Shown here: piece after piece, positions 9,915 to 49,800 of the stretch
Numbering within the stretch: the first letter of the stretch is position 1
How the letters are laid out: the number at the start of each line of letters is the position of its first letter
From: Sphaerochaetaceae bacterium
Lineage (GTDB): Bacteria; Spirochaetota; Spirochaetia; Sphaerochaetales; Sphaerochaetaceae
DNA length: 64,000 bases
Direction: 5' to 3'
Assembly: GCA_028532765.1 (NCBI GenBank)
Contig: JAQQAR010000026.1
Span: 1-64,000, forward strand
Made by a program: the position numbers and the translations under genes
The notes under the pieces: model-generated
What the model was told of the DNA's origin: nothing
Seen by the model: the letters and a program-made list of their open reading frames with translations, nothing else
The model's database searches: none

Positions 9915-12862
9915 GAGGGATGCAAGATGAGCGGCTGCTGGCAAGCCTTGAGACAAGTTTTTTTGATGCACGCATTCCCTCTGCAATGAGTCTGCGTCCT
10001 CATTTGGTGCTCAATGAACCACCAAGGACAAAAGTGATGGAGACACTCGTTCGTGAGCTTGCCTCTTGTACTTCATTCTCGTTCAGCGTTGCATTCATTA
10101 CCAAAGGTGGGTTGGCAATGCTTTTGCAGCCACTTTACGAGGCACAGAGGAGGGGAGTGAAAGGGAAAATTCTCACCTCTGACTACCTTACCTTCACCGA
10201 TCCCGATGCGCTTGCTTTCTTGCTTGAATACTTTCCATCGATAGAGCTCAGGGTGTATACGGAAAAAGCATTTCATACCAAGGGCTATCTCTTCACTCGC
10301 GAGGAAGATTATGCCACCTTGGTGGTAGGAAGCTCAAACTTGACCCATGAGGCTCTTGCCACCAATCAGGAGTGGAACTTGTTTTTGGTTAGCTCGTGTT
10401 CCGGCAGTCTCGTCCAAGAGACCCAGGAAACGTTTCAAGAGGCTTGGGACAAAGCTGTAGAGGTCAGCCCTGCGTGGATTGCTCACTATCGTGAAGTGTA
10501 TGCTGCTCTCCATACCCATAAGCGATTTGAGCCGCTGCCGCTTCCCTCCCTTCCAATAGCCCAGAGGCAAGAAAAGAGAGAACAGCTGGTGCTTAATGCC
10601 ATGCAGGTCCAGGCATTGGATGGTCTTGAACGGCTCAGGGAACAAGGCAAGGACAAGGCGCTGTTGATATCCGCGACCGGTACAGGAAAGACCATACTCC
10701 TGATCAAGGATGTGGAACGCCAGCGCCCTAAACGGTTCCTTTTCGTCGTACATCGTCAGCAAATTGCAGAAGAAGCCCTTGCACGGTTCAAGGAACACCT
10801 CGGTGATGACTTGGAGTGTGGTCTTCTCTGCGGGGAAACCAAGGAAGCAGACGCTCCCTACCTTTTTGCAACTGTTCAGACGCTGTCAAAGGATGAAGTG
10901 CTGCATACGTTTCCAAAAACCTGGTTTGATTATCTGGTTATTGATGAAGTGCATCATGCGGGAGCTGCATCATACCAGAAAATCTTGAACCATTTTCAAC
11001 CGGCCTTTCTGATGGGGATGACGGCAACGCCATACCGAAATGATGACAAAGACATCTTCCAGCGATTTGATTATGCTGTTGCCTGTGAAATCCAACTCAA
11101 CCAAGCGCTGGATGCTGGAATGCTTTGTCCTTTTCACTACTACGGGGTAACTGAATTCTCCATCCAAGGTCATGAACAGGTTCAGTACAAGGATTTTGCC
11201 CGTCTGGAGAAAGTTGAACAGGTGAAGCATATCAACCAGATGCTCAAACGATACAGTATTGGCAATAGGCGGGTACGTGGTCTGATTTTCTGCAGCCGAA
11301 ACAAGGATGCCGCTTTTCTTGCACAGGCTTTGTCTGATTTGGGAAGAAGGGCGATGGCCCTCTCGGGTGCGGATTCGCAGGAGGCGAGGGAAGCGGCCTT
11401 TCTCCGATTGGAGAAGGAGAGTGGTAAGGATGCACTGGAGTATCTGGTGACGGTGGATATTTTCAATGAAGGAGTTGATATTCCTTCCTTGAATCAGGTG
11501 GTGATGCTCCGACCGACGGAGTCGGCAATCATTTTTGTCCAGCAACTTGGCAGAGGACTCAGAAAGTACCCAGGAAAAGAGTTCCTTACAGTAATAGATT
11601 TTATTGGAAACCATGCCAACAATTACATGATACCCATTGCTCTCTTTGGCGATAGGACCTATCGCAAGGATACGCTTAGAAAACTATTAAGTGAAGGTTC
11701 TACCGCCCTAAGTGGTCCATCGACCATACAGTTTGATGCAGTGGCCAGGGGGAAGATCTTTGAAGCAATCAATCGTGTTTCCTTCAAGAACAAAACCTTG
11801 CTTGGACAGGAGTATGCAAGCCTCAAGCAGAGGCTGGGCAGAACACCCAACCTTATTGATTTCATCACGATGGGCTCTCTCTCACCTGTTGTCATCCTGG
11901 AGTATGCTAGGACGTATATTCAGTTCAAGGAAAGAGTTGAGAAGCACTTTGTACACACACTTACCGACTTGCATCTGAAGAGCTTGTACTATCTTGGGAA
12001 GATACTGGCAAGAGGAGTACGGATTCAGGAGACTTGCATGATCAGATCCCTTTTGGAAAATGATGGAGAGATTGAATACGCATCTATTCCCAAGCTTATA
12101 CAGGAATCCTATGGATATATCCCTACAGACCAGTCGATCGAATCGGCGCTTAGGATCCTATCCAACCAATTTTTCCAGGAAAAACACAAGAATTCTTTTG
12201 GCTCACTCTCCTATGTGACCTTGACAAAGACAGGGATCAGAAAGAGTCCGTCTTTTTCAACGTTGCTGGAAAATGAGGAGTATCGCATTGAGCTAGATGA
12301 CCTTCTGGAGGTTAGTAAGTATTCGTATCTCAATGATTTTGCTGAGCGTCGTGGTTCGTATGATCTGGTGCTTTACCAGAAGTACACTCGCCAAGAAGTG
12401 TGTAGGCTTCTGGGTTGGGAACATGATGAGGCAAATACCATCTATGGATACAAGGTTGACTACGAGCACCACCAGTGCCCAATCTTTGTTACGTATCACA
12501 AGGATTCCCAAACTATTGATCCTGGTATTGATTATCGGGATAAGTTTCTCTCTCCTGAACAGTTTGTCTGGGAAACCCGTACCAATGTACGTCTCGAGTC
12601 AAAGGAAGCGAGAGCAATACGGGGAGAAATGGGGCCCATGGAAGTGCTGCTCTTTGTGCAGAAAAGCAATGATGAGGGGCGTTCATTCTACTACCTTGGA
12701 CCTCTTTCCTTCCTCCGTAATGCACCTAGTTCAAAGATCAACGGGAAAGGAAAGCACCTACCAGTGGTAATGATGCGGTTTATGCTTTCTCACCCTGTCC
12801 CACAAAGTCTATACAACTACATCCTGGAATTGGTGGACAACTCATCCCAAACCACTGCTTAG
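9911..12862 (+). CDS. PLD-nuclease / superfamily 2 helicase / DUF3427 protein
   Basis: The 983-residue protein has an N-terminal phospholipase-D-like nuclease domain with a single HxK motif (FHTKGYLF, about 117-124, followed by VGSSN), then an SF2 helicase core: Walker A GTGKT (about 256-260), DEVH box (about 345-348), TAT motif, and motif VI QQLGRGLRK (about 547-555). The remaining 400 residues match the DUF3427 C-terminal region in character. Family members are thought to act on damaged or foreign DNA, but the substrate is not established. Coupling to a Nudix enzyme suggests repair of oxidised DNA or defence. Confidence 0.85.
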   Translation: MRGMQDERLLASLETSFFDARIPSAMSLRPHLVLNEPPRTKVMETLVRELASCTSFSFSVAFITKGGLAMLLQPLYEAQRRGVKGKILTSDYLTFTDPDALAFLLEYFPSIELRVYTEKAFHTKGYLFTREEDYATLVVGSSNLTHEALATNQEWNLFLVSSCSGSLVQETQETFQEAWDKAVEVSPAWIAHYREVYAALHTHKRFEPLPLPSLPIAQRQEKREQLVLNAMQVQALDGLERLREQGKDKALLISATGTGKTILLIKDVERQRPKRFLFVVHRQQIAEEALARFKEHLGDDLECGLLCGETKEADAPYLFATVQTLSKDEVLHTFPKTWFDYLVIDEVHHAGAASYQKILNHFQPAFLMGMTATPYRNDDKDIFQRFDYAVACEIQLNQALDAGMLCPFHYYGVTEFSIQGHEQVQYKDFARLEKVEQVKHINQMLKRYSIGNRRVRGLIFCSRNKDAAFLAQALSDLGRRAMALSGADSQEAREAAFLRLEKESGKDALEYLVTVDIFNEGVDIPSLNQVVMLRPTESAIIFVQQLGRGLRKYPGKEFLTVIDFIGNHANNYMIPIALFGDRTYRKDTLRKLLSEGSTALSGPSTIQFDAVARGKIFEAINRVSFKNKTLLGQEYASLKQRLGRTPNLIDFITMGSLSPVVILEYARTYIQFKERVEKHFVHTLTDLHLKSLYYLGKILARGVRIQETCMIRSLLENDGEIEYASIPKLIQESYGYIPTDQSIESALRILSNQFFQEKHKNSFGSLSYVTLTKTGIRKSPSFSTLLENEEYRIELDDLLEVSKYSYLNDFAERRGSYDLVLYQKYTRQEVCRLLGWEHDEANTIYGYKVDYEHHQCPIFVTYHKDSQTIDPGIDYRDKFLSPEQFVWETRTNVRLESKEARAIRGEMGPMEVLLFVQKSNDEGRSFYYLGPLSFLRNAPSSKINGKGKHLPVVMMRFMLSHPVPQSLYNYILELVDNSSQTTA

Positions 12863-44769: not shown

Positions 44770-44961
44770 AATAAACTCCTTTGAAAAAATTGATATAGAA
44801 TTGTAACAATGAATAGCTATTACATACAACTGTAAAACAGCTATTTCTTTACCCTTAATGCTTTGTGTGCTTTTACTGTTTATAACATGGTCAGGTATAA
44901 ATAGTTTACTAGGGGTACTTTACCCTTGATTAAACAAAAAAAGAATGCTATAAATTATAAC

Positions 44962-46521
44962 ATGGTTTCGAGATTATCACGCCCAAAAGTCATTGAAATT
45001 GTCAATAAGAAGAATCATGTCACCTATTTATACGAGGACCAGTACTACTGGGACCCTGATAAAAAACAGACACGGCATAAACGTCGATGCATCGGTAAAC
45101 TCGATGGAGTAACGGGAGAGCCAATCTATAACCCTACATATCAGCAGGAGCTGGAGAGTCAGGGAACGGAGACGGTGAAAGCGATTCCTTCATTCCGGTC
45201 CTATGCATTTGAGCAGTTGCAGGAAGTCATTGAAAAGGAGCTCAGCCTGAGAGAGTGGATGCAGCCACTCATGAGTGAGGAGAAGGTGGAGAAAATCCTG
45301 CATCTTGCTTGGTACCTTATCTGTTCAAACAATCCCATCTCCTATGCTACCCATTGGAAACAAGGAATCTATACGAGTGTGGAGAGTTTGGTAGAACTGC
45401 AGGGAATCCTTCGCTCCCTGGACGCTGAGTTTCTCCGAATCTGGGGACAACGTTGTCTGGAAAATTTTAATGAGAATTCCAGCGAAATCATATTTGACCT
45501 TTGCAGTACTGCCAGTTATCAGAACCATAACCCATTTCTCCAATATGGTTACAACCGTGATATAGAGGCCTTGGAACAGAATACCATCATCTTACTAGCT
45601 CATGGTGATAGTCACCTCCCATACTCGTTCCAGATTCTCGATGGGACGATGCTCAGCAGCAAGACCATTGCGAATGTGATGGATACGCTGGAAGTCGATA
45701 CCGATACAGTATTGATGCTCAATCGCAGATACTTCTCAATCCCCAGGATTCAGGAGTTGGTGGAACTGGGGTACCAGTTCATTATCCGCATCCCAACTCG
45801 AAAGCGATGGTTGGAGCAATTCATTGAAAAACATCGTGATGAGATTGTTGTGGGGACAACGCTCTATGACTGCAAGGGTAGGGAGCTGAGGAGTCTGAGT
45901 CTCTCTGCACCCTTCCTGGAGGAGGAGTCTCTTACCATTCATCTCTATTATGATGAGCAGTGGAGAGAGAGCCAGCGGAGCAATCTCCTTTCCTTGTTGG
46001 GGAGATGTAAACGAGAACTGGAGTTTGAAGTACCGCTTGAGGAGCATGCCCGATTATATGAAACCTATTTCAAGGTACGAAAACGCCCCAATGGAAGTAA
46101 TAGGGTCAGCCTAAGCCGTGACCCACTGAGAACCTTTGAGGCCTCCCAGGCAGGTTTCTGGGCAGTGATCACAAACACAGGGCTCTCGGCAGAACAAGCC
46201 CTTGCCAAGTATGAACAGCGCAATGACTTTGAACATCGATTCAATAACCTTATGAACCAAGAGGACTGCAGGTTGTTGCATGTCCAGTCTCCCCAGAATT
46301 TTCCCGGTAGGGTATTTCTCCAACTCATCTCTGAGATCATCCGGCAGAAATTGTTGGAAAAGTTGGAAGATACCGATTACAGCCTGAGCCAGGCACTCTT
46401 TACAGTTATGGATATCCAGGAAGTTACATTCAGAGAAAATGATACTCCTTATAGGAGTGAGCTGAATGAACGAGACAAGGAAATCCTTGGGAAGCTTGGC
46501 ATTGTGGTAGAAGAAGCATAG
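44962..46521 (+). CDS. IS4/IS1634-type DDE transposase relative, probably not active
   Basis: The 519-residue protein (ATG 44962; a TTG at 44926 has AGGGG upstream and would add 12 residues) has the N-terminal domain of IS1634-type transposases, an RNase-H-like core beginning IIFDLCSTASY (first Asp) and a terminal YEQRNDFEHRF, the YREK-like Glu region. The second catalytic Asp is expected in VVAD but reads LMLNRRYFS, with Asn. I find no terminal inverted repeat. It could be domesticated or decaying. Confidence 0.6.
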   Translation: MVSRLSRPKVIEIVNKKNHVTYLYEDQYYWDPDKKQTRHKRRCIGKLDGVTGEPIYNPTYQQELESQGTETVKAIPSFRSYAFEQLQEVIEKELSLREWMQPLMSEEKVEKILHLAWYLICSNNPISYATHWKQGIYTSVESLVELQGILRSLDAEFLRIWGQRCLENFNENSSEIIFDLCSTASYQNHNPFLQYGYNRDIEALEQNTIILLAHGDSHLPYSFQILDGTMLSSKTIANVMDTLEVDTDTVLMLNRRYFSIPRIQELVELGYQFIIRIPTRKRWLEQFIEKHRDEIVVGTTLYDCKGRELRSLSLSAPFLEEESLTIHLYYDEQWRESQRSNLLSLLGRCKRELEFEVPLEEHARLYETYFKVRKRPNGSNRVSLSRDPLRTFEASQAGFWAVITNTGLSAEQALAKYEQRNDFEHRFNNLMNQEDCRLLHVQSPQNFPGRVFLQLISEIIRQKLLEKLEDTDYSLSQALFTVMDIQEVTFRENDTPYRSELNERDKEILGKLGIVVEEA

Positions 46522-46694: not shown

Positions 46695-46978
46695 TCATAT
46701 ATCTGATGCTTTCGTTCGATCTGTTTGGATTTTTCGTGTTTTGGTGATGAAATGTTTCCTGGAATACATCCAAAGTGAAAATCGTGACAGTGATTGCAGT
46801 ACAGTGGTGTTGACGTTAAGCGAAGTAGTGCCAAATTCCATTTAATCTTGTCAGTGTGAATGCTCCTTCCATTTTTCCTTTCTCCATAAACTGAGTAGAC
46901 TCATTCATAAGTTCCAAAGAAAGGATAAAAAAGAAAAATCCTTTCCTGCTTTTTCTTAAGCAGAAAAGGATTAGTAAG

Positions 46979-47035
46979 TGCGGTAGACTGGACTTGAACC
47001 AGCACAAGATTTCTCCCACTAGCACCTCAAGCTAA
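46979..47035 (-). other. attL: 3' fragment of tRNA-Leu(GAG)
   Basis: Read on the minus strand, an anticodon stem-loop (TTAGC, loop with anticodon GAG at 47028-47026, GCTAG), a long variable region, a T-arm (GCTGG, TTCAAGT, CCAGT) and an acceptor strand CTACCGC plus discriminator A are present. The 5' acceptor strand and D-arm are missing and replaced by repeat-rich DNA at about 47036. CCA is not encoded. This is the usual mark left by integration into the anticodon region of a tRNA gene. Confidence 0.8.
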
Positions 47036-47798: not shown

Positions 47799-47978
47799 AT
47801 GAATCAGTCAAAACCCGATAAAACTAAGGTTGGGCACATAATTGTCAGCCGATTCTCTTCAGCAGAGAAAGAGGCAATCAGAAAGGCTGTAACCAAAGCC
47901 CAAGTACGTAGACCAGTATTTTACCATGATGCAATCGTGGTGTTCGCAACGCTTCTAAACAAGGAGGAGAAAACATGA
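47799..47978 (+). CDS. Small ribbon-helix-helix-like protein
   Basis: The 59-residue protein has HIIVSRFSSAEKEAIRKAV (strand then helix) and VFYHDAIVVFATLL (second helix), the pattern of CopG/Arc-type ribbon-helix-helix DNA-binding proteins. It is the first gene of the early operon and its stop overlaps the next start (ATGA). Proteins of this fold bind phased direct repeats, such as the nearby TGTATC array, but no link is shown. Confidence 0.6.
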   Translation: MNQSKPDKTKVGHIIVSRFSSAEKEAIRKAVTKAQVRRPVFYHDAIVVFATLLNKEEKT

Positions 47979-48172
47979 TCCTTCTAACCCCAAAGCAAAC
48001 TGCCGAATACTTGCAGCTCTCCGAGATCCAGGTGCGACGTCTCCTTGCCGCCAATAAGATCCCCCACTTCAAGATCGGTAGGGTGAATCGGGTAAACCAG
48101 GAGGAGCTTGATGCATGGTTGATGAAACGAGCACGGCAAGAAGCCGTTGGATCTTTTAAACAGAAAAGGTAA
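47975..48172 (+). CDS. Excisionase-like helix-turn-helix protein (HTH_17)
   Basis: The 65-residue protein has the MerR-type winged-helix pattern LTPKQTAEYLQLSEIQVRRLLAANKIPHFKIGR, then NQEELDAWLMK, as in phage excisionases and small helix-turn-helix activators. An AGGAGG site precedes the ATG. In a prophage this protein could direct excision or early transcription. A second family member is encoded at 58251. Confidence 0.75.
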   Translation: MILLTPKQTAEYLQLSEIQVRRLLAANKIPHFKIGRVNRVNQEELDAWLMKRARQEAVGSFKQKR

Positions 48173-48273
48173 TACCACCACCACTCCTGCCGATGAGTCG
48201 ATCGGCATCAAAGGGCGAGGTTGTCTTTGACCTTCATTGACCGCGTGGCTCACGGGAGACCCGATAGAAGCTG

Positions 48274-48322
48274 TTGGGTGAAAGGGAATGGCTTCCCCGT
48301 GGTTCGATTCCACGGCACCCAA
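48274..48322 (+). ncRNA. tRNA-like element 1, compact
   Basis: TTGGGTG (48274-48280) pairs perfectly with CACCCAA (48316-48322). The T-arm is canonical in its loop (TTCGATT, 48303-48309) but has a 6-bp stem CCGTGG/CCACGG. Between are only a GGAA-TGGC-TTCC hairpin and AAA: D and anticodon arms are reduced or missing. An alternative reading as a class II tRNA starting near 48239 would need three central acceptor mismatches and lacks U33. A functional tRNA is unlikely. Confidence 0.5.
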
Positions 48323-48433
48323 TACCTGCCCCGTATGGGGAGGACACCCAAAGACAGCCGGAAAGACGGCAGAAAATTAATTCACAATCTGTTTCTGGAA
48401 TCTTCTCGATAGACGTTGTCTGTCGAGAAGGCT

Positions 48434-48537
48434 TGGGACTATCCGGTACGGGACCCGGTAACGGATTACATATGAGGGAGAGAAGGTCTGGACAGACCAA
48501 CCGTTCGCCCTGTGGGTTCGAGTCCCACAAGTCCCAA
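48434..48537 (+). ncRNA. tRNA-like element 2 with enlarged anticodon loop
   Basis: Acceptor TGGGACT (48434-48440) pairs with AGTCCCA (48530-48536), followed by A. The D-arm is CCGG, loop with GGG, CCGG (48443-48458). The anticodon stem AACGG (48460-48464) pairs with CCGTT (48501-48505) around a 36-nt loop that contains the hairpin GGTCT-GGAC-AGACC. The T-arm has loop TTCGAGT and stem TGTGGG/CCCACA (6 bp). A stable hairpin lies just upstream. A normal tRNA loop has 7 nt. Confidence 0.55.
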
Positions 48538-48593
48538 TAATCGCATCCTGCCTTTTCGGAGGAGGAAGGGTATTGCCCACCATAGAAGGGCTC

Positions 48594-48717
48594 GGGACCG
48601 TGGCGCAGGAACGCTGGGGATGCACGGTAGACAAGGATTAACGGAGGTGACCGGTTGAGCCCGCTAGCAACTGTCGTATCCGTCACTGATGCAGGGTTCG
48701 AATCCCTGCCGGTCCCA
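48594..48717 (+). ncRNA. tRNA-like element 3 with enlarged anticodon loop
   Basis: Acceptor GGGACCG (48594-48600) pairs with CGGTCCC (48710-48716), discriminator A. T8, a 3-bp D-stem (GCG/CGC) and CAGGAA loop are present. GGATGC (48618-48623) pairs with GTATCC (48676-48681, one G-T pair) as anticodon stem around a 52-nt loop. The T-stem is 6 bp (GCAGGG/CCCTGC) with loop TTCGAAT. The 13-bp acceptor-plus-T helix exceeds the canonical 12. Confidence 0.55.
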
Positions 48718-48742
48718 ACCAAATTTTTAGGAGGCATCAAGA

Positions 48743-49105
48743 ATGCAAGACAAAAGTGACGTGATGATGCAGGAGCTCTTCGGGACGATTGCATCAAAGG
48801 CTGTCGAAATCTATCAGCAGTCGACACGGGAGAAGCTGGAGAATGAAGACGACTCCAGAATGGAAATCGAACTTCTCATGCAACAGGTTGAGGACAAGGA
48901 TGAGGAAATCTCATCTCTGAACAGGAAAATCTCAGAGTTGCAGGGAGTGATTGAAAGGCATGAGAGTGAGACCGATGGCCTGAAGTCGGAAATCAAGGAG
49001 CTCCGAATCTTGAGGGACCAATATCGTGGTTGGTGGCTGGAAGAAGTAACGGAAAAAAACACAAGGCCGGACGCGGCAACGTCCGACCAGGAGGCATCCA
49101 AATGA
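48743..49105 (+). CDS. Coiled-coil protein, prophage early gene
   Basis: The 120-residue protein has a long coiled-coil-like region (about 25-95) with heptads of Leu/Ile, Glu and Lys. No family is recognised. AGGAGG precedes the ATG, and its stop overlaps the Sak4-like gene by 4 bp. Position suggests a recombination or replication accessory protein. Confidence 0.6.
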   Translation: MQDKSDVMMQELFGTIASKAVEIYQQSTREKLENEDDSRMEIELLMQQVEDKDEEISSLNRKISELQGVIERHESETDGLKSEIKELRILRDQYRGWWLEEVTEKNTRPDAATSDQEASK

Positions 49106-49800
49106 CTATTGAAAAAACCAAATCAATCAAGGCCGAGGACAACCTCGTGATCATTGTATATGGGAAGGGTGGTGTCGGCAAGACCACCTTTGCCGCTTCA
49201 TCACCGAGACCTCTCATCCTCGATTTCGAGAATGGGACGAAGTATCTGGGTACCCGTGGATTCGATGTTGATGTAATCAGGATGAAGAAATGGCTTACCG
49301 GGAAGGACAAAACCGACTTGGTAGAGATCATTGCCGATCATGAGACCATTGTCATCGACCCACTTGGGGAGGCAATGGAAAAGCTCATTGATTCCCCTGA
49401 GATAAAGGGGGTGAAATACCGTACTGGTGATGGAGGCCTCACTATGGCCGGTTGGGGAGAGGTGAAGAAGCAAATGCGCTCCTTCATCAAGTTCCTCCGT
49501 GATACCGGGAAGAATGTGATCATCGTAAGCCACGTGAGTGAGATACAGACAGAGCAGGGCCTTGAGCACAGGATACAGGTTGCTACCAAGCTGTCCGATG
49601 AGATTCCCAACATGGTTGATGTCATTGCATACATGGGGGTCATTCGGAACGACAACGAGATCAAGCGGGTACTGTACATCCCCCAGCAGGGTGGTGGCTT
49701 TGATTCCAAGGACAGGACAGGCAGGTTCCCCCAGACAATCCACATCGGGGAACAGACTGGATGGTCCGATTTCATCTCTTCCATGAAGGAGGTGAAGTGA
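49102..49800 (+). CDS. Sak4-like phage RecA/RadB-type ATPase (AAA_24)
   Basis: The 232-residue ATPase has Walker A GKGGVGKTT (about 26-34), a Walker B-like TIVIDPLG and a VSHV sensor segment, and matches the AAA_24 nucleotide-binding proteins seen next to phage exonucleases and SSB. Sak4 relatives promote single-strand annealing. The start at 49102 follows CCAGGAGG and overlaps the previous stop. Downstream it meets the nuclease gene with a one-base overlap. Confidence 0.82.
   Translation: MTIEKTKSIKAEDNLVIIVYGKGGVGKTTFAASSPRPLILDFENGTKYLGTRGFDVDVIRMKKWLTGKDKTDLVEIIADHETIVIDPLGEAMEKLIDSPEIKGVKYRTGDGGLTMAGWGEVKKQMRSFIKFLRDTGKNVIIVSHVSEIQTEQGLEHRIQVATKLSDEIPNMVDVIAYMGVIRNDNEIKRVLYIPQQGGGFDSKDRTGRFPQTIHIGEQTGWSDFISSMKEVK

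Follow-up and report, generated by a model that had tools for sequence, protein, structure and literature searches.

Three tRNA-like elements in a prophage early region

The window, that is, the whole 64,000-nucleotide stretch of Sphaerochaetaceae bacterium DNA analysed here, carries part of a prophage of ~48 kb, which runs from 46977 to contig position 94927 and is bounded by 58-bp att repeats. We delimit it in this way because the 58-bp tRNA-Leu(GAG) repeat is present at both ends and a tyrosine integrase adjoins the right copy, a direct repeat at contig 94870-94927. A transposase-like ORF without a PHROG match (window 44926-46521) lies just beyond the left attachment repeat. Between the excisionase-like gene and the early recombination genes (Sak4, exonuclease, NinB/Orf, Holliday junction resolvase and SSB) sit three tRNA-like elements, E1-E3, all on the + strand. 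The element region is 100% identical in a second genome of the species. The local features are as follows:

46977..47034, - strand: attachment-site repeat at the left prophage end, a 58-bp copy that is part of tRNA-Leu(GAG)
47975..48172, + strand: excisionase-like HTH_17 gene (PF12728, E=3e-13; phrog_66, phrog_1840)
48189..48206, + strand: leader hairpin GCCGATGAGTCGATCGGC, with the counterpart TCCGGTGAGTCGTCCGGA in L090-type phages
48208..48273, + strand: conserved leader RNA preceding E1 (model R1, 70.3 bits)
48274..48322, + strand: E1, tRNA-like element with acceptor, 5-bp hairpin and T-arm, without D-arm or anticodon arm
48329..48340, + strand: hairpin CCCCGTATGGGG; CCCGTATGGG recurs near the leader of L021, L090 and L252
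48403..48429, + strand: long hairpin between E1 and E2
48434..48536, + strand: E2, tRNA-like element with a possible 5-bp anticodon stem and 36-nt loop
48594..48716, + strand: E3, tRNA-like element with D-arm, 6-bp anticodon-like stem, 52-nt loop and 13-bp acceptor+T stack
48729..48734, + strand: Shine-Dalgarno-like AGGAGG of the next gene
48743..49105, + strand: coiled-coil-like protein gene
49102..49800, + strand: Sak4-like recombinase gene, the anchor for relatives (phrog_124, E=5e-36)

The leader RNA has no Rfam match; beyond this species, its model R1 matches 5 genomes of the same family, in one case weakly. Copies lie at 48208-48273 of the window, L021:4650-4717 and L127:11562-11630, and also in L090, L252, L258, L293 and L302; in spirochaete phages this RNA follows an excisionase-like gene and has two hairpins with the core CATTGACCGG...CCGGGAGAYC. 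The CCCGTATGGG hairpin around the leader of several phages is possibly a protein-binding site.

Each of the three elements combines a perfect 7-bp acceptor helix with a T-arm bearing a TTCRANN loop. In E1, TTGGGTG (48274-48280) pairs with CACCCAA (48316-48322). Base 48297 is common to the sixth T-stem pair and the GGGAATGGCTTCCC hairpin, and the T-stem reaches 6 bp only with that hairpin at 4 bp. In E2, the acceptor strands are TGGGACT (from 48434) and AGTCCCA (48530-48536), the T-stem is formed by TGTGGG (from 48511) and CCCACA (from 48524), and the anticodon stem AACGG/CCGTT (48460-48464/48501-48505) would enclose a loop that holds the hairpin GGTCTGGACAGACC at 48485-48498. In E3, GGGACCG (from 48594) pairs with CGGTCCC (48710-48716), followed by the discriminator A at 48717; the D-arm spans 48602-48615, the anticodon-like stem pairs GGATGC (48618-48623) with GTATCC (48676-48681), and the T-stem pairs GCAGGG (from 48691) with CCCTGC (from 48704).

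Most of this architecture had been noted in a preliminary description of the locus, and it proved accurate: the three elements lie where they were first placed with the pairings given, the two enlarged loops are exactly 36 and 52 nt long, and the fold of E1 consists of acceptor, small hairpin and T-arm, with no anticodon arm. The anticodon stems ascribed to E2 and E3 stand on different footings. In the minimum-energy fold of E3, the D-arm and the 6-bp stem around the 52 nt are both present, and the stability of the interior is no better than that of shuffles (z -0.8). The stem in E2, when forced, lies ~7.6 kcal/mol above the MFE, so that the interior fold of E2 is uncertain and the anticodon stem with its large loop is a possibility of the folding model.

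A strict descriptor, which admits neither mismatches nor G-U pairs in the acceptor, gave 3 matches in the 570-bp region and 0 in 5000 dinucleotide shuffles. ARAGORN did not find a tRNA in the region, and Rfam gave no gathering-level match there. The best sub-threshold Rfam matches at E1-E3 were mascRNA-menRNA (19.9 bits) and tRNA-Sec (14.6-18.5 bits), the latter being the best model of its clan there; RF00005 was not reported for the elements even at E=10. Compared with tRNA (RF00005), including phage-encoded tRNA, the elements share the 7-bp acceptor, the T-arm with its TTCRANN loop, usually the D-arm, and the discriminator A. They differ in lacking a usable 7-nt anticodon loop: in place of a 5-bp stem with a 7-nt loop, U33 and purine 37, E2 has 36 nt, E3 has 52 nt and E1 has no such arm. 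None of the host tRNAs examined has a GGGACYG acceptor; the attachment-site tRNA-Leu lacks an encoded CCA.

Several known RNAs resemble the elements in part. In tmRNA, a tRNA half has another structure in place of the anticodon arm (see PMC3929946). E1-E3 likewise keep a tRNA half with the anticodon arm replaced, whereas their insert is much shorter; no tmRNA match was found by Rfam in the window, nor in a 701-bp stretch at E up to 10, and the tmRNA identity pair G3:U70 is absent from E2 and E3, which have G3:C70 in canonical numbering (it is present in the relatives L002a, L258a and L302a). mascRNA/menRNA (RF01684) is described as a tRNA-like RNA without a normal anticodon arm that is released enzymatically from a long transcript (PMC9777231). 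E1-E3 share the tRNA-like structure without a normal anticodon arm, but their 19.9 bits fall below the cut-off of 42.5, and the likeness to this mammalian RNA does not imply a common origin. The 13-bp acceptor+T stack of E3 recalls tRNA-Sec (RF01852), whereas the scores lie far below its gathering threshold of 47 bits and the long variable arm is absent. tRNAs with group I introns also carry an insert in the anticodon region, but inserts of 36-52 nt are too short, their removal restores no tRNA, and Rfam detected no intron core of this kind in the window or the 701-bp stretch.

Conservation among related phages

Related phages carry arrays of one to five tRNA-like elements. The homologue search in related genomes, suggested at the outset, thus yielded further elements of this kind. 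DNA blast of the region against phage records returned short, weak pieces only, and relatives were reached by three routes: the Sak4 protein, the leader RNA R1, and a gapped pattern for the long type. A mismatch pattern, GGGACYGTGGYGSAR, run over 297 genomes, was discarded as too noisy.

By the first route, 28 viral loci (257 kb), chosen by protein and not by RNA, contained 8 non-canonical tRNA-like matches (one or two of them, L288 and L268, may be spurious), all on the operon strand, against 0.25 expected. The same loci contained just one ordinary tRNA. Together with the shuffles of the region, these counts lead us to reject a chance origin. The leader lies upstream of tRNA-like elements in L002/L127, L021, L090, L252, L258 and L302, and occurs without one in L293 and, as a weaker match, in L301. 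The gapped pattern for the long GGGACYG type matched two records in the GTDB collection, both from Spirochaetes, and four viral contigs. In L038, a putative excisionase-like reading frame is accompanied by a weak match to the leader (14 bits, E=0.12), and four T-arms lie within 1.1 kb. L270 packs four T-arms into 0.5 kb, with one more upstream. In another viral contig (L093:1105-1600), repeated CCCGGTG...CGCCGGG hairpins alternate with tRNA-like pieces.

Some relatives are much closer to tRNA. L090A, L021a, L007, L252B, L302b and L090B exceed the RF00005 gathering threshold; L090A scores 53.8 bits with a 5-bp anticodon stem and 30 nt in place of the 7-nt loop, and L252B is accepted though it has no anticodon arm. 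Ordinary 7-nt anticodon loops in homologues had been named as one observation that would speak against an unusual RNA class. Among the window-type homologues examined, no fully canonical loop was found: in L021a, a stem of 4 bp carries a 7-nt interval without U33, and L002a, L258a and L302a have an 8-nt loop or bulge. These last three near-canonical elements (L002:540-610, L258:1857-1927, L302:1592-1662) combine G3:U70 with a discriminator A, the alanine identity, and their 8-nt loop carries UCC or UCU. Within what seems to be a series derived from tRNA, E1-E3 would stand at the divergent end. The 6-bp T-stem, once taken as the hallmark of the elements, is found in E1-E3 and in the relatives L002b and L004, whereas a 5-bp stem prevails among the relatives, and we therefore rejected it as a class feature.

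Of the 12 acceptor/T pairs compared across 15 elements, hand-cut to their acceptor and T segments, 11 show two-sided changes, and pairing holds in 98.3% of cells; shuffles reach 74.6%, and slid pairings at most 52%. The test is partly circular, since most rows were selected by pairing. The rows free of this bias are L090A, L252A, L252B and L302b, which were reached via the leader or flanks. Between L090A and L252A, a C-G pair of the acceptor has changed to U-A (GGGACCG/CGGTCCC to GGGATCG/CGATCCC), a compensatory change. The check for covariation set out initially thus came out in favour of the stems, with the caveat on row selection just given.

Five pairs of corresponding loci show where the sequence is kept. 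Identity is 77-96% over the 100 bp upstream and 83-100% over the T-arm with the 3' acceptor. In three pairs (L090A/L252A, L090B/L252B and L002b/L302b) the middle is only 23-51% identical; in the two L002a-type comparisons it is 90% identical, with the change from UCC to UCU in the 8-nt loop. The comparison shows, as far as sequence can, that selection appears to keep the acceptor-T half, usually with the D-arm, and puts no such constraint on the anticodon domain, which can be lost, enlarged or swapped.

This pattern bears on the idea that the elements are ordinary phage tRNAs that have lost the anticodon arm and are drifting. A graded series from near-canonical (L002a, L021a) to very divergent (E1) and the two T-stem mismatches of L021b are what such decay might leave behind. 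However, the acceptor/T pairing is nearly complete, with two-sided changes, where the middle has been completely replaced, and the elements come several to a phage; under drift, one would expect broken stems as well. We consider decay of E1-E3 and their relatives unlikely, indeed decidedly improbable. The earlier suggestion of a common design rather than decay gains from the covarying acceptor/T stems and from the abnormal anticodon domains at corresponding loci in related phages, and the elements look less like broken tRNAs than like tRNA imitations maintained as a class.

Downstream of the elements, the flank is unrelated in all five pairs (56-62%, the background level), which we attribute to accessory genes having been inserted or exchanged there. 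Accessory genes differ at the element junctions, and one gene family follows different elements; the homologue of the coiled-coil-like gene in L021 likewise follows a tRNA-like element (L021b). These comparisons mark the junctions as places where genes are exchanged. The elements might be mainly recombination joints, DNA-level junctions for swapping accessory cassettes in which the RNA fold is a by-product of tRNA origin. The step from conserved upstream to unrelated downstream flanks, the recurrence of the same gene family after different elements, and the GGGACYG and T-arm sequences common to elements of different phages all point this way. But such joints explain neither the compensatory acceptor changes nor the perfect pairing in elements with other acceptors (E1, L004, L023), and we regard this explanation as improbable.

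Possible roles of the elements

We tentatively propose, with somewhat less than even confidence, that E1-E3 are phage-encoded, non-decoding tRNA-like RNAs cut by host enzymes, and that they form a processing module on the early transcript. They would be transcribed with the early operon, from the leader. RNase P, tRNase Z and the CCA-adding enzyme recognise the acceptor-T half, the part common to all elements, also those that lack a D-arm or anticodon arm. Because this half and the discriminator A are retained, we infer that the acceptor ends would be cut by host RNase P and tRNase Z and that CCA would be added. Processing of the early transcript at the elements is proposed because their common part is the one that these enzymes recognise and because the spirochaete elements examined have a discriminator-like A after the acceptor. 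The module would separate the leader and the downstream accessory genes on the early transcript; it is tempting to speculate that the released tRNA-shaped RNAs also engage a tRNA-binding host factor.

The position of the elements is consistent with such punctuation: most lie ~10-75 nt upstream of a candidate start codon, in many cases with a Shine-Dalgarno-like sequence between. Two features argue against punctuation pure and simple. One is the run of elements with no obvious gene between them, three for E1-E3 and two in L038; the other is that inserts of 30-60 nt in compact phage genomes call for more than processing. Tandem elements and the upkeep of enlarged loops would fit released RNAs with a role of their own, for example as decoys. 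An antisense role of the enlarged loops gained no support, since their matches to the prophage and nearby host DNA are no longer than in shuffles.

As decoys, the released RNAs would bind a host factor directed at tRNA, such as a defence RNase, a toxin, or a processing or modification enzyme, through the acceptor-elbow half, and the altered anticodon domain would avoid translation or anticodon nucleases. The tandem arrays without intervening genes and the combination of a hypervariable anticodon domain with a maintained fold speak for this possibility. According to one report, phage-encoded tRNAs counter tRNA-cleaving defences such as PARIS (PMC11455837), which points the same way. However, the conserved half is equally what RNase P needs, and we hold decoys as the main explanation to be possible, though rather unlikely. 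The elements may serve as punctuation, as decoys or as both.

Besides the processing module, a broader and more tentative proposal is that these elements may exemplify a so far undescribed class of small RNAs in phages. Its members would be non-decoding tRNA scaffolds in arrays, with the acceptor-elbow half kept and the anticodon side changing rapidly, and they would be used against or in place of the host tRNA-handling machinery. To our knowledge, no described family has these features. At the level of titles and listings, the open-licence literature on phage pseudo-tRNAs, tRNA decoys, prophage tRNA-like RNAs and short tRNA introns does not describe such elements. The elements are probably tRNA-derived, and part of their relatives score as tRNAs. 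Should the RNAs be produced and mature, phages would employ tRNA-shaped molecules beyond decoding. Such RNAs would be discarded or missed by standard annotation, as tRNA finders demand an anticodon loop. They would offer concrete elements on which to test whether phages exploit tRNA processing or evade defences directed at tRNA, and an example of a tRNA with its codon-reading half replaced and the other half kept by selection.

Inserts in tRNA genes of unrelated phages

In unrelated phages, we found 33 distinct candidate tRNA genes with inserts near the anticodon stem that share a hairpin and then a motif near CAGCAATTA; the genes were collected partly via this motif, and its conservation thus partly reflects selection. 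The insert (39-54 nt) lies mostly in the 5' strand of the anticodon stem, and its hairpin is followed by ACAGCAATTA. Examples are:

L141:10274-10386 and 10535-10648: insert-bearing tRNA genes
L150:3002-3113: insert-bearing tRNA gene
L152:5452-5563: insert-bearing tRNA gene
L169:7661-7776: insert-bearing tRNA gene
L188, L189, L198 and the L031-L057 group: further insert-bearing tRNA genes
MN695335.1:220408-220517 (L336:801-910): insert-bearing tRNA gene of a cultured phage
MT161459.1:11731-11844 (L338:612-725): insert-bearing tRNA gene of a cultured phage

In the two cultured phages, these genes are annotated as tRNA-Undet or tRNA-Pseudo. Aeromonas phage Ahp1 and Synechococcus phage B23 have tRNAs of this kind. 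Once ~39-54 nt are taken out, 18 of the 30 testable genes regain a canonical anticodon arm, against 0.5 by shuffling, a result independent of the motif; the restored tRNAs include Lys, Thr, Pro, Arg, Gly, Asp, Asn and others. The inserts look like an undescribed family of tRNA mini-introns.

E1-E3 and their relatives could likewise be functional tRNAs whose small introns are removed, as suggested for these other phages, where removal so often restores a tRNA. However, when the same removal was applied to the 15 window-type elements open to this test (E2, E3 and relatives), none gave a canonical tRNA (0.1 expected), and in E1 and L252B there is too little space for an anticodon arm. A hidden intron was therefore rejected for the 15 testable elements, and for the set as a whole we regard this explanation as very improbable. 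The preliminary description had treated bacterial tRNA introns as large group I introns only. That view needs revising in the light of the mini-intron-like inserts of 39-54 nt in other phages; what holds is that E2 and E3 stand outside that group. Inserts of another kind, ~80 nt long, occur in two tRNAs of L161 (3871-4022 and 5005-5158), which score 53.8 and 59.7 bits with the Rfam tRNA model.
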